This document shows positions 1 through 51,879 of a stretch of DNA of 64,000 bases, in pieces. The position numbers were made by a program, and so were the translations under genes. Numbering within the stretch: position 1 is the stretch's first letter; the number at the start of each line of letters is the position of its first letter. Origin of the DNA: Acidobacteriota bacterium (lineage in GTDB: Bacteria; Acidobacteriota; Terriglobia; Bryobacterales; Bryobacteraceae). A model generated the notes under the pieces. That model was not told where the DNA came from. It searched no databases and worked only from the letters and a program-made list of their open reading frames with translations. The stretch lies in contig JACQZR010000088.1 in the NCBI GenBank assembly GCA_016213775.1, positions 1 through 64,000 of the forward strand. Reading direction: 5' to 3'.

Positions 1-138
1 GCTAAAGCAACTTCAGTTTCTATTGCCATCAGATCTTGCGGCGCGATAAACCGCTGCGTTCAACCGCCGGATGCGGAAAACCGCACGTCCGGTGGTGTGG
101 GAGGGTGACGGGGCACAAACCCCGTCACTCGACCCGAT
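1..138 (+). mobile_element. 3' end of a group II intron (domains V and VI), 5' part outside window
   Basis: Positions 63-96 fold as a domain V hairpin: a long stem capped by an AAAA loop (77-80), interrupted on its 3' side by the two-base CG bulge (86-87) that marks the group II catalytic hairpin. Positions 103-130 form a second hairpin (GTGACGGGG against CCCCGTCAC) as expected for domain VI, and the sequence CCGAT at 134-138 is a typical intron 3' end. Any intron-encoded reverse transcriptase would lie to the left of the window; a short open frame ending in TAA at 47-49 could be its tail, but 15 codons are too few to say. The retrotransposition activity and the 5' boundary cannot be judged here. 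Confidence 0.7.
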
Positions 139-48834: not shown

Positions 48835-49149
48835 ATGATGCGACAGGACGCACAAACAGGCCGAAGGCCGGCTAAACCGGTCCCGGCGGCGAAAACATAC
48901 CGATTCGATGCCCGCCTGAATGAAGAGCAAAAGCTCCTAATTCAGCGTGCGGCTGATTTGGAAGGGCGCACGATGACCGATTTTGTCCTCCATAGCGCGG
49001 AAACCGCCGCCGAACGGACGATTGAAAGGCGCGCCATGTTGATCCTGACGGCTCGGGAGACAGAGGCATTTGCAAATGCCATCCTGAACCCGCCTCGCCC
49101 CGGTCCTGTTCTGCGACACGCCGTTCGCGAGTACCGCGCCAGGCGCTAG
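48835..49149 (+). CDS. DUF1778 antitoxin (TacA-like)
   Basis: A 104-residue ribbon-helix-helix antitoxin of the DUF1778 family: KTYRFDARLNEEQKLLIQRA, DLEGRTMTDFVLHSAE and the C-terminal toxin-wrapping tail with ILTARETEAFANAILNPP. It binds its own promoter and neutralises the GNAT toxin encoded three bases downstream. Either of two adjacent ATGs (48835, 48838) may be used. Confidence 0.9.
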   Translation: MMRQDAQTGRRPAKPVPAAKTYRFDARLNEEQKLLIQRAADLEGRTMTDFVLHSAETAAERTIERRAMLILTARETEAFANAILNPPRPGPVLRHAVREYRARR

Positions 49150-49152
49150 CAC

Positions 49153-49671
49153 GTGCCGCCTGTTTCTGAGTATCGGATCGAGCCGCTAGGGCCCTCTCAT
49201 GATCGCACTGCTTTTCACTCTGGCGTCGCTGAACTCGACGATTACCTGCATCATCAAGCTGGTCAGGATTCGAAACGGAAGGTCGCCGCACCGTTCGTCA
49301 TGGTCGATGCCGGCGGTTCCATTCTCGGCTACTACACTCTGTCGGCCTATGGCATCCGCCTATCTGCCCTCCCGGAAGGGATCAGCAAAAGGCTCCCTCG
49401 CTATCCGCTAATTCCGGCGACCCTCCTTGGCCGGTTAGCCGTTAGCAGTGCGCACCAGGGCCAGAAACTTGGGCGTTTCCTTTTGACGGATGCCCTGCAC
49501 CGGAGCTGGCGCAACACAACAGAAGTAGCGTCTGTGGGGGTCGTCGTCGATGCTCTGGATGAGAGAGCGCGCGCTTTCTACCTACATCACGAATTCATAC
49601 CGTTGTTGGATCACCCAAACCGGCTGTTCCTGGCGATGGCTACGGTTGGGAGAGCATTCAAGGCGAGGTGA
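49153..49671 (+). CDS. GNAT-family toxin (TacT-like)
   Basis: A 172-residue acetyltransferase of the type that acetylates aminoacyl-tRNA and blocks translation. The start is GTG three bases after the antitoxin stop. Recognisable by ELDDYLHHQAGQDSKRKVA, the acetyl-CoA loop region LGRLAVSSAHQGQKLGRFLL and the C-terminal ARAFYLHHEFIPL with the catalytic Tyr. The module appears complete, in contrast to several eroded ones in the window. Confidence 0.9.
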   Translation: MPPVSEYRIEPLGPSHDRTAFHSGVAELDDYLHHQAGQDSKRKVAAPFVMVDAGGSILGYYTLSAYGIRLSALPEGISKRLPRYPLIPATLLGRLAVSSAHQGQKLGRFLLTDALHRSWRNTTEVASVGVVVDALDERARAFYLHHEFIPLLDHPNRLFLAMATVGRAFKAR

Positions 49672-49716
49672 ATCTCCCGCCACACGATACTCGTGCTCGT
49701 GCGCGGACCAGAGCAG

Positions 49717-49746
49717 TTGCATTCCCGCCCCACCTGCGCGTATAAT
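49717..49746 (+). promoter_or_regulatory. Promoter of the DAHP synthase leader
   Basis: A perfect -10 box TATAAT at 49741-49746 and TTGCAT at 49717-49722 with an 18-base spacer. The stretch after the -10 box is pyrimidine-rich until A49756, the first base of the leader-peptide ATG, so transcription may start at or only a few bases before that codon. Confidence 0.7.
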
Positions 49747-49755
49747 TGCTTCTTC

Positions 49756-49800
49756 ATGCTTTACTCCGCCTACAGCTTTAGCTTTCGATTCTGGTGCTGA
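49756..49800 (+). CDS. Aromatic-rich leader peptide of the DAHP synthase gene
   Basis: A 14-codon frame, MLYSAYSFSFRFWC, with TGA at 49798-49800. Six residues are aromatic (Tyr3, Tyr6, Phe8, Phe10, Phe12, Trp13), the end products of the pathway the next gene begins. It starts ten bases after a consensus -10 box, with no space for a ribosome site, and is followed by alternative hairpins ending in an intrinsic terminator. All this fits a ribosome-stalling leader peptide. It was not expected to be found by length-limited gene callers. Confidence 0.75.
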   Translation: MLYSAYSFSFRFWC

Positions 49801-49879
49801 ACCGGGATCCCGTGGGCGGCGTTTTCAAGCGTTAAGATTTCCGGTATTCGAACCAAGCCCACTCGCAAAGAGTGGGCTT
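49766..49879 (+). promoter_or_regulatory. Attenuator: protector, antiterminator and terminator pairings
   Basis: Region 1 (CCGCCTAC, 49766-49773, inside the leader peptide codons 4-6) can pair with region 2 (GTGGGCGG, 49812-49819). Region 2 (GTGGGC) can instead pair with region 3 (GCCCAC, 49857-49862). Region 3 is also the left arm of the terminator (49855-49864 with 49870-49879). These are mutually exclusive. A ribosome held at the Phe/Trp codons would cover region 1, free region 2 to capture region 3 and allow read-through. Confidence 0.65.
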
Positions 49880-49887
49880 TCTCTTTT
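49855..49887 (+). terminator. Intrinsic terminator upstream of DAHP synthase
   Basis: AAGCCCACTC (49855-49864) and GAGTGGGCTT (49870-49879) form a ten-base perfect stem with a GCAAA loop, followed by TCTCTTTT. It lies between promoter and gene (27 bases before the start codon), so it can only serve as a conditional terminator. A second GCCCAC (49893-49898) just before the ribosome site could also pair with its right arm. Confidence 0.85.
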
Positions 49888-49913
49888 ATCGGGCCCACAG
49901 GAAGGAACTTGTC

Positions 49914-50954
49914 ATGATCGTCTCCATGAAGCGCTACGCCACTAAGGCGGAAATCCAGTCTGTCTGCGACCGTATCCTCGACTTCGGCTACAAAATCCAC
50001 GCCATCGAAGGCGAAGAGCGTGTCGTCATTGGCGCCGTCGGCGTTGGCGACGTCACCGCCTGCCTGGAATCCCTCGAAGCCTTGCCATGCGTCGAGAAAG
50101 CCGTCCGCATCTCCGCCCCTTACAAATTCGTCAGCAAGGAGTTCCGTACCTCCAAAACCGTCATTCGCATCAACGGCGGCGGCATCGAAATCGGCGGCGA
50201 TGACTTCATCGTCATGGCCGGCCCCTGCTCGGTCGAAAGCGAAAAGCAGATCATGGAATCCGCCCACGCCGTCGTCAAAGCAGGCGCGAAAGTCCTCCGC
50301 GGCGGTGCCTTCAAACCCCGCACATCCCCCTACGATTTCCAGGGCCTTGAAGAGGAAGGTCTCAAACTCCTTCGCAAAGCCAAACAAGCCACCGGTCTCG
50401 CCATCATCACCGAAATTATGTCCGACCGCGACGTCGACCTCGTCGCCGAATACGCCGACATCATGCAGGTGGGTGCGCGCAACATGCAGAACTTCGCGCT
50501 CCTCAAAACCCTCGGCAGATGCCAGCGCCCCGTCATGCTCAAGCGCGGTATGAGCTCCACCATCCGCGAGCTCCTCATGTCCGCCGAATACGTCGTCGCC
50601 CACGGCAACTCCCAGGTCATCCTTTGCGAGCGCGGGATCCGCACCTTCGAAACCGCAACCCGCAACACGTGCGACATCGTCGCCGTCCCGGTGCTCCAGG
50701 AGATGACTCACCTCCCCGTCGTCCTCGACCCGAGCCATGCCACCGGCAAACGGAGCCTCGTCCCCGCGCTCTCCCGCGCCGCTGTCGCCATCGGCGCCGA
50801 CGGCCTCATCCTCGAAGTCCATCCCTGCCCCGAAAAGGCCGTCAGTGATGGCGCGCAGTCACTCCACATTGATGAGTTCGAGCGCATGATGGCCAGCCTC
50901 AAGGGCTACGTCAAACTCTGGAAAGAGTCCCGCCCCGCTCCCGCCACGGTATAG
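49914..50954 (+). CDS. aroF: 3-deoxy-7-phosphoheptulonate synthase (DAHP synthase, type I-beta) with N-terminal regulatory domain
   Basis: First enzyme of the shikimate pathway: condenses phosphoenolpyruvate and erythrose 4-phosphate. The 346-residue protein has a ferredoxin-like regulatory domain at residues 1-70 ([20 protein letters not shown]), as in the Thermotoga-type enzyme, and a catalytic barrel with [34 protein letters not shown] and [10 protein letters not shown]. The regulatory domain suggests feedback inhibition by Tyr or Phe. ATG at 49914 has AGGAAGGAA eight bases upstream. Expression appears to be attenuated by an aromatic-rich leader peptide. The next gene starts one base after the stop. 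Confidence 0.93.
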
Positions 50955-50955
50955 C

Positions 50956-51879
50956 ATGAAGGACCCGCGCCCACCATGGCATTTCGCGGCCATCTTCGCC
51001 GCGCTCCTCGTTGTCTGCGCCGGAGTCTTCATCATCGTCAGCCGCCGGCCTGTCCCGGCGGCCCGGCTCGTCCAGTATCTTCCCTTCGGTGACCGCGTCC
51101 TCATCTCAATCGACGGCCTCGCCCTTCGCAAAGCCGGCCTGATCAAAGCCGTCCCCAGCGTCGCCGAAGAGGCCGATTACAGAGACTTCGTCCAGTCAAC
51201 CGGCTTCAACTACCAGCGCCATCTCGATCACCTCTACCTCTCCGTCGGCAACAACGAAACCCACGCCTGGGTCGTCGGCCGCTTCGATTGGAAGCGCCTT
51301 CAAGCCTACGCAAAGTCGCACGGCGGCGACTGCCGCTCCGTAGTCTGCCGGCTCGATTCCCCCACGCCCGGCCGCAAAATCAGTTTCCGCCGCAACGGCT
51401 CCGGCATCCTCGCCCTCGCCAGCAGCGCCAACCCCGACGCCGTCCAGCGCCTGTTCACCAAACCCGCCACCGCACCGCCCCCCGAGCCGCCCCCGCAACC
51501 GGTCTGGTTCCTGCTCCCGCACGCCACTCTGCAAACCGCCGCCTCCATGCCCGACGGCTCGCGGATGTTCCTCAGCGCCATCTCCACTGCCTCGCACGCC
51601 TTCATCGCCATCGGCGCGAAAGAGAACGGTTTCCAAGCCACCCTCGACGCCCTCGCCCCCAACGATCAGGAAGCACAACAAGCGGTGCGCGAGCTCCAGG
51701 CCGCAACCACCGTGCTCAACCGCATGCTCGCTCGCGAAAAACAGACGCCCAATCCGCGCGATCTCAGCGGCGTCCTCACCCGCGGGGAATTCTCCCAACA
51801 AGGCGTCCACATCAAAGGCGCCTGGCCCATCGAGCGCTCCTTCCTCGAATCCATCAACCTCGCCGGATCGGATAAATGA
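50956..51879 (+). CDS. Membrane-anchored protein of unknown function
   Basis: A 307-residue protein with a short cytosolic N-terminus, one transmembrane helix (HFAAIFAALLVVCAGVFIIV) and a soluble periplasmic domain with no recognised motif. A Pro-rich linker (TAPPPEPPPQP, about residue 172) separates two halves, each probably alpha/beta. The second half includes a long helix (QEAQQAVRELQAATTVLNRM). It lies between the DAHP synthase and a PfkB-type kinase, overlapping the latter's start by four bases, so it is part of that operon. Its link to either function is unknown. Confidence 0.7.
   Translation: MKDPRPPWHFAAIFAALLVVCAGVFIIVSRRPVPAARLVQYLPFGDRVLISIDGLALRKAGLIKAVPSVAEEADYRDFVQSTGFNYQRHLDHLYLSVGNNETHAWVVGRFDWKRLQAYAKSHGGDCRSVVCRLDSPTPGRKISFRRNGSGILALASSANPDAVQRLFTKPATAPPPEPPPQPVWFLLPHATLQTAASMPDGSRMFLSAISTASHAFIAIGAKENGFQATLDALAPNDQEAQQAVRELQAATTVLNRMLAREKQTPNPRDLSGVLTRGEFSQQGVHIKGAWPIERSFLESINLAGSDK

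Follow-up and report, generated by a model that had tools for sequence, protein, structure and literature searches.

The DNA analysed, hereafter the window, is a stretch of 64,000 nucleotides from a member of the Bryobacteraceae (Acidobacteriota), and the element described here lies on its forward strand in front of aroF (49914–50954). The product of this gene was recognized as a DAHP synthase (3-deoxy-7-phosphoheptulonate synthase) with a ferredoxin-like N-terminal domain, scoring 275.8 bits against PF00793, 64.9 bits against PF18152 and 490.7 bits against NF006421; we take it to be of type I-beta. One nucleotide past the aroF stop codon begins a 307-codon ORF (50956–51879) without a match in Pfam or PHROGs, after which comes, with a 4-nt overlap, a pfkB-family kinase gene. 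Directly 5' of the element, the genes for a TacA1-type antitoxin (PF08681) and a GNAT acetyltransferase (48835–49671) make up a TacAT-like toxin–antitoxin module. A group II intron match (Rfam RF00029, 44.9 bits) is found at the very start of the window (62–138).

The sequence in front of aroF begins with a −35-like element, TTGCAT (49717–49722), which matches TTGACA at three of six positions and lies 18 nt 5' of a −10 box, TATAAT (49741–49746). They precede a 14-codon leader ORF, MLYSAYSFSFRFWC* (49756–49800), which is devoid of a Shine–Dalgarno sequence, is probably leaderless and has six aromatic codons (Tyr3, Tyr6, Phe8, Phe10, Phe12 and Trp13). Both the −10 box, read directly from the sequence, and the leader frame are kept in relatives. 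Within the ORF, region 1 (CCGCCTAC, 49766–49773) is the lower 5' arm of a protector hairpin, 1:2, whose lower stem comprises eight pairs, including one G-U, with region 2 (GTGGGCGG, 49812–49819). The upper stem of that hairpin has a 5' arm containing the Phe12 and Trp13 codons (49787–49795), identified by folding and compensatory changes, and a 3' arm (49801–49809), identified by folding and by the preference for cognate partners described below. Region 2 can pair alternatively, through GTGGGC (49812–49817), with region 3, GCCCAC (49857–49862), and region 3 in turn can pair with region 4 in an intrinsic terminator of ten pairs with a GCAAA loop (AAGCCCACTC-GCAAA-GAGTGGGCTT, 49855–49879), which is borne out in the alignment called A1 below. 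A T-rich tail, TTTCTCTTTTATC (49878–49890), and the Shine–Dalgarno sequence of aroF, AGGAAGG (49899–49905), were likewise read from the sequence. An initial, sequence-only reading had proposed an attenuator here, made up of the TATAAT box, the 14-codon aromatic frame, the 1:2 and 2:3 pairings and the ten-pair terminator with its T-rich run, and had named the gene behind it a DAHP synthase; we recovered every one of these parts at the position proposed, and the profile matches agree on the gene. The upper stem, the TTGCAT element and the lack of a Shine–Dalgarno sequence before the leader are additions to that description.

No known Rfam element reached its gathering threshold at the leader. 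Scores at the leader were 12.5 bits for Trp_leader (RF00513; gathering threshold 41), 17.0 bits for Phe_leader (RF01859; 55) and 21.4 bits for Leu_leader (RF00512; 50), and none of the three families has a match at gathering level anywhere in the window. Rfam searches for T-boxes yielded none at gathering level in the window and none up to an E-value of 10 in 49650–49960.

Two sets of orthologous loci were assembled. One was obtained from 61 genomes, 60 of which had a match, the best 30 places being taken as loci; the other came from a scan of named genomes, with 80 of 397 confirmed stretches kept. Together they make 110 loci with 92 distinct upstream regions, mostly from Bryobacterales. A short ORF with at least four aromatics per ten residues was initially picked in 75 of the 92 regions; six of these were dropped for an unfit ORF or hairpin (L027, L049, L074, L080, L084 and L097), leaving 69 leaders in which the ORF, region 2 and region 3 are all present. 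A covariance model, R1, which models the terminator pairs only, was built from 59 leaders. Full-length matches to it identified leaders in six more regions (L018, L046, L059, L088 and, re-entering in this way, L084 and L097), so that the leader is present in 75 of the 92 regions. Three others, two of which sit at the end of a contig, gave partial matches (L074, L090 and L108); in the remaining 14 the ORF scan, hairpin search and covariance model revealed no recognizable leader. R1 also matched two genomes outside the model set, with E-values of 1.1e-24 and 4.1e-24. Sampling at the genus level found the leader in 12 of 12 genomes, our own included, and among 18 further DAHP synthase upstream regions from related genomes, some of a paralogous type, six have a leader with at least five aromatics in ten residues. 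The relatives carrying the leader include two presumably cultured strains, KBS 96 (L107) and F-183 (L047), so the proposal should be directly testable. Contigs labelled Singulisphaera sp. (L041, with a typical leader) and Patescibacteria (L080) encode DAHP synthases close to those of Bryobacterales and possibly stem from misassigned bins.

The leader frame has a clear coding signal. Phe, Tyr and Trp account for 36.4% of the 1,211 in-frame codons of the 69 leaders, as against 10.9% and 6.3% in the other two frames. Phe is present in all 69 leaders, Tyr in 64 and Trp in 64, and the three residues interchange at several conserved positions. The peptides differ greatly in length, in their ends and, beyond the aromatic block, in sequence. 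We assessed how often such a frame arises by chance by counting ATG frames of 8–40 codons with at least five aromatics in ten residues, a measure on which the window's own leader scores five in ten. They occur in 62 of 90 sense upstream regions but in only 2 of 90 antisense ones and in 56 of 5,667 random 320-nt windows from the same loci, control windows with the conserved terminator motif having been excluded.

Promoter-like elements are conserved directly in front of the leader. In the counts that follow, which cover 67 of the 69 leaders (the other two have <50 nt of upstream sequence), a −10 box with at least four of six matches precedes 65 leaders, compared with 32% of shuffled sequences, and in 53 of those 65 it lies 8–9 nt 5' of the leader ATG. 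Of the 67 leaders, 49 have the motif TTGC 16–19 nt 5' of the −10 box, against 2.2% of shuffles; a consensus promoter scan listed no promoter at the leader of the window. A Shine–Dalgarno match of at least 4 nt is absent in front of 65 of the 67 leader ORFs (present in two), and 56 of the 67 DAHP synthase starts have one. With the promoter 8–9 nt from most leader ATGs and no Shine–Dalgarno sequence, the leader is probably translated from a leaderless RNA end, at the predicted transcription start.

The minimum free energy fold of 49756–49886 combines hairpin 1:2 with the terminator 3:4, at −52.2 kcal/mol, whereas shuffled versions average −35.2 kcal/mol (sd 3.5; z −4.8), none of 200 being as low. 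The segment from behind a ribosome stalled at Trp13 to just before region 4 folds as 2:3. This alternative helix, of six pairs, is rather weak in the window: of 200 shuffles of its 60-nt segment, 42 fold to as low an energy (z −0.8), so that the segment is barely more stable than they are, and its duplex energy of −13.0 kcal/mol compares with a mean of −17.3 kcal/mol in the relatives. The lower-stem 1:2 duplex is stronger than the mean (−17.5 vs −13.4 kcal/mol). Across the 69 leaders, the 5' segment including region 2 is more stable than shuffles, with a mean z of −2.3.

Alignment A1 comprises 59 of the 69 leaders, the ten left out being mostly near-duplicates. In A1, 98.3% of the 531 cells of helix 3:4 are paired, with three pairs changed on both sides, and 88.4% of the possible pairs of 2:3 form. 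For both helices, the share of pairs, the number of cells changed on both sides and the covariation score all exceed those of 500 of 500 shuffles, and sliding the structures by 1–3 columns yields a far smaller share of pairs. The two measures based on numbers of pairs and of pair types are unremarkable: for 2:3 they are matched by 27 and 37 of 500 shuffles, and for 3:4 by 153 and 156, the lower figure in each case being for pairs with changes on both sides. Hairpin 1:2 gives a weaker signal on A1: 72.8% of its cells are paired, a share that 15 of 500 shuffles attain, and 114 of 500 attain its covariation score. Indels that put its arms out of register may be the cause. RNAalifold run on A1 returned the terminator only; the other helices were tested through named structures and through swapped-partner energies.

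The latter test is alignment-free: each arm is paired with its own partner and with the partners of other leaders. Of the 69 leaders, three with a short arm or a gap in the peptide alignment were set aside, and the other 66 were thinned to 44 for this test; the mean duplex energies given above rest on the same 66. All four helices prefer their cognate partners, with z-scores of −8.2 for the upper stem of 1:2, −6.2 for 2:3, −8.1 for 3:4 and −3.7 for the lower stem of 1:2, and none of 5,000 permutations was as low in any of the four. Four control pairings displayed no such preference (z −1.1, −0.7, −0.1 and +1.4); the permutation leaves some relatedness, which thinning and controls address only in part. 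Compensatory sets in helix 2:3 include GAGCGG/CCGCTC (L050) and GGGTGG/CCACCC (L092 and L094). The sequence-only reading had suggested folding the leader region and looking in relatives for covariation in the stems, and had taken the absence from relatives of the leader frame or of the stem complementarity as evidence against it. The fold bears it out, and both frame and stems are kept in relatives, with compensatory changes.

In the relatives as a set, the aromatic codons are placed as ribosome stalling would demand. In the 69 leaders, 424 of 441 of them begin at least 16 nt 5' of region 2, which is the spacing that a ribosome footprint would need, the edge of the ribosome lying some 12–15 nt from its A site. 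With a ribosome modelled at the last usable aromatic codon, the mean score for 2:3 is 0.84, compared with 0.19 for shuffles, and exceeds 0.5 in 64 of 69 leaders; it falls below 0.4 in four (L071, L078, L087 and L091). Stop codons start between −19 and +20 relative to region 2 (median −8), and with a ribosome modelled at the stop the mean 2:3 score is 0.33, 23 of the 69 leaders, including that of the window, being above 0.5. In the window, the stop codon is 14–16 nt 5' of region 2 (the median for the 69 leaders being 8), and the modelled 2:3 scores of 0.84 at the stop and 0.60 in the stalled state are the reverse of what simple masking needs. Because its stop codon is so far from region 2, a ribosome parked there would, with its edge taken as 13 nt, not cover region 2, and termination must then rest on the re-forming of hairpin 1:2. 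The strong 1:2 stem of the window may replace masking of region 2 by the ribosome. The geometry at the stop is the weakest point of the attenuator case for the window copy.

We put at about 0.9 the probability that the element controls the DAHP synthase gene by ribosome-mediated transcription attenuation. Codons for the end products of the pathway abound in a short leader ORF (36.4% of codons; 56 of 5,667 control windows hold such a frame), and the element has mutually exclusive 1:2, 2:3 and 3:4 pairings and an intrinsic terminator before the gene. The parts, their conservation and their covariation are seen in the sequence itself, as is the spacing for the relatives as a set. Transcription would start at the leader ATG or a few bases 5' of it, and a ribosome would begin on the nearly leaderless RNA end. 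A shortage of Phe-, Tyr- or Trp-tRNA would make the ribosome stall at one of the six aromatic codons and open hairpin 1:2; region 2, remaining free, would pair with region 3, the terminator would be blocked and aroF would be transcribed. When all three tRNAs are charged, the ribosome would reach the UGA, where it would either cover region 2 or, more likely in the window copy, depart and let 1:2 re-form. Region 3 would then pair with region 4, and transcription would end 5' of aroF. Judging from its codon content, the element would respond to each of Phe, Tyr and Trp.

Other explanations have to be weighed against this one. It is quite possible, at odds somewhat short of even, that the attenuator answers to only one or two amino acids, here through the Phe12 and Trp13 codons, the others being bystanders. 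The [FY]-R-[FY]-W block, which is near region 2, has the most conserved aromatic positions of the leader (93, 99 and 80% aromatic), and the passage on aroR in a review describes a Phe-Tyr-Phe leader of Corynebacterium aroF that reacts to Phe limitation and not to Tyr (PMC11802643). However, all three residues are present in 60 of the 69 leaders, with Tyr and Trp each in 64, and aromatic codons are frequent over the whole stretch 16–42 nt 5' of region 2, where any stall should free region 2. The arginine of the same block might instead point to arrest by the nascent peptide, with the leader sensing a free aromatic metabolite in a TnaC-like manner rather than tRNA charging; it would then belong to the arrest motif, and it is retained in 62 of 68 leaders through different codons (CGA in 50, CGG in 7, CGC in 4 and AGA in 1). 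Yet F, Y and W interchange at several positions, and the Arg codon is part of the upper stem, on its 5' side, and varies in step with the opposite arm, so that RNA pairing can explain its conservation. A biosynthetic gene would also be better served by read-through at shortage than at excess. We therefore consider peptide arrest very unlikely.

A terminator serving the upstream TacA–TacT-like pair, with the leader ORF there by chance, would account for a hairpin that starts 184 nt past the end of the GNAT gene and that would stop GNAT transcripts too. We give hardly any credence to this explanation, since relatives keep promoter-like elements directly 5' of the leader as well as the aromatic frame and regions 1 and 2. 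In addition, the upstream ORFs, picked mechanically, fall into 45 clusters in 60 loci and are often on the opposite strand (26 cases); as they differ among relatives while the leader stays, the leader unit belongs to aroF. The combination of a chance ORF with a stray terminator was rejected on the basis of the random-window controls, the coding signal, the swapped-partner energies and the variable upstream ORFs. Finally, in addition to attenuation and compatibly with it, the leader peptide might have a function of its own, or the terminated RNA might act in trans as a small RNA, in the manner of peTrpL and rnTrpL. The layout is shared with Sinorhizobium as far as the passages on that system describe it, with 14 codons, a leaderless start and a small attenuator RNA (PMC10117765), but the peptide is very variable in length, ends and sequence outside the aromatic block. 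We consider such a second role unlikely.

Searching the own genome (G000) with R1 identified the window as its only strong match (E-value 3.9e-28). The next match, with an E-value of 0.219, is the antisense of the window terminator, and the rest range from 1.58 to 9.86; inspection of those at 1.58 and 2.41 revealed no aromatic leader. No aromatic ORF was found upstream of the DAHP synthase paralogue at C215, and the match at C271 starts inside the query, so that the stretch inspected there may not be the true upstream region. The stretch scanned at the trpE-like gene of this genome contains no separate leader, and pheA lies 3 nt behind another open frame.

In the phylum, R1 gave matches with E-values of at most 0.01 in 48 of 297 genomes, most of them to the terminator only and not counted as leaders. 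Of the ten matches that span the whole model, eight were examined (all but those of G180 and G334); among these eight, L145 is no leader and L130 is a Cys leader. At L130 (1501–1674; G254:C56:32465–32638), a leader ORF with five Cys codons, MTTISNTFSFRCCCCCNVTGVRG, and a terminator lie directly before a gene that we named peroxiredoxin-like by eye from its translation; its layout resembles that of an attenuator sensing cysteine, here in a different family of the class. Outside the Bryobacterales group the aroF leader is seldom seen: 3 of 29 other loci of a phylum sample have at least five aromatics in ten residues (L181, L192 and L193); L129 (G247) has CIFWYFF before a DAHP synthase gene. Aromatic-rich ORFs by the same measure occur at 8 of 30 trpE loci, such as PYYTYYWWFKRVGL (L206) and NYYFWWYYLSGW (L215), and the one at L219 may be due to chance. 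L131 and L139 have such ORFs before trpE too, and those observed in other Acidobacteriota families are at L119 (the same gene as L225), L131, L139, L204, L206, L212, L215, L217 and L223. Six genomes (G120, G070, G061, G098, G124 and G065) have a DAHP synthase match approximately 6–8 kb 3' of such a leader-bearing trpE on the same contig and strand. We tentatively propose, with somewhat less than even confidence, that one leader combines the three aromatic amino acids in an OR gate, and that an all-aromatic attenuator type is spread over Acidobacteriota with a changed target, the leader being that of trpE in several families and that of a separate DAHP synthase gene in Bryobacterales. The terminated RNA of such an OR-gate leader could additionally act in trans.

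Mutually exclusive 1:2, 2:3 and 3:4 pairings are also found in trpL and pheL of Escherichia coli, where region 1 likewise contains the sensor codons and a terminator precedes the first gene. The E. coli leaders differ in having Shine–Dalgarno sequences, other target genes and one amino acid each. The reading of several end products of a branched pathway by one leader is familiar from the ilv and thr leaders, which belong to the branched-chain and threonine pathways, whereas the pathway here is the aromatic one. An aroR leader of aroF was reportedly described in Corynebacterium glutamicum by Neshat et al. in 2014.

The sequence-only reading had presented the element as a control system that it did not know to be described in Acidobacteriota. 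In the open-access literature searched, we likewise found no description of an aroF attenuator in Acidobacteriota, nor of a leader sensing all three aromatic amino acids. Attenuation at a DAHP synthase gene as such is already known from aroR of C. glutamicum (PMC4046766, PMC11802643). In the passages that deal with it, aroR resembles our element in having an aromatic-codon leader peptide before the DAHP synthase gene and in that ribosome stalling raises transcription; unlike aroR, which is from another phylum and for which those passages name no Trp, the leader described here has six aromatic codons of three kinds. The likeness is drawn at the level of function and target gene. The rnTrpL/trpL leader of Sinorhizobium meliloti, according to the passages describing it (PMC10117765), is likewise a 14-codon leader that starts right at the 5' end of its RNA and forms an attenuator of an aromatic pathway gene, but it precedes trpE and senses Trp, whereas here the target is aroF and the transcript start is a predicted one. 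The relevant passages of a 2010 survey (PMC2965389) state that leader-peptide systems were known only in Proteobacteria and Actinobacteria, to which the survey added Firmicutes, and that almost none of the attenuators predicted in Acidobacteriota had associated functions; the present element would provide a concrete function in that phylum. It suggests that these soil Acidobacteriota would read the charging state of the tRNAs for all three products at once and set the flow into the shikimate pathway accordingly. Compared with these systems, the aroF leader thus appears to represent the same mechanism in a new lineage, with a probable sensor of three amino acids.
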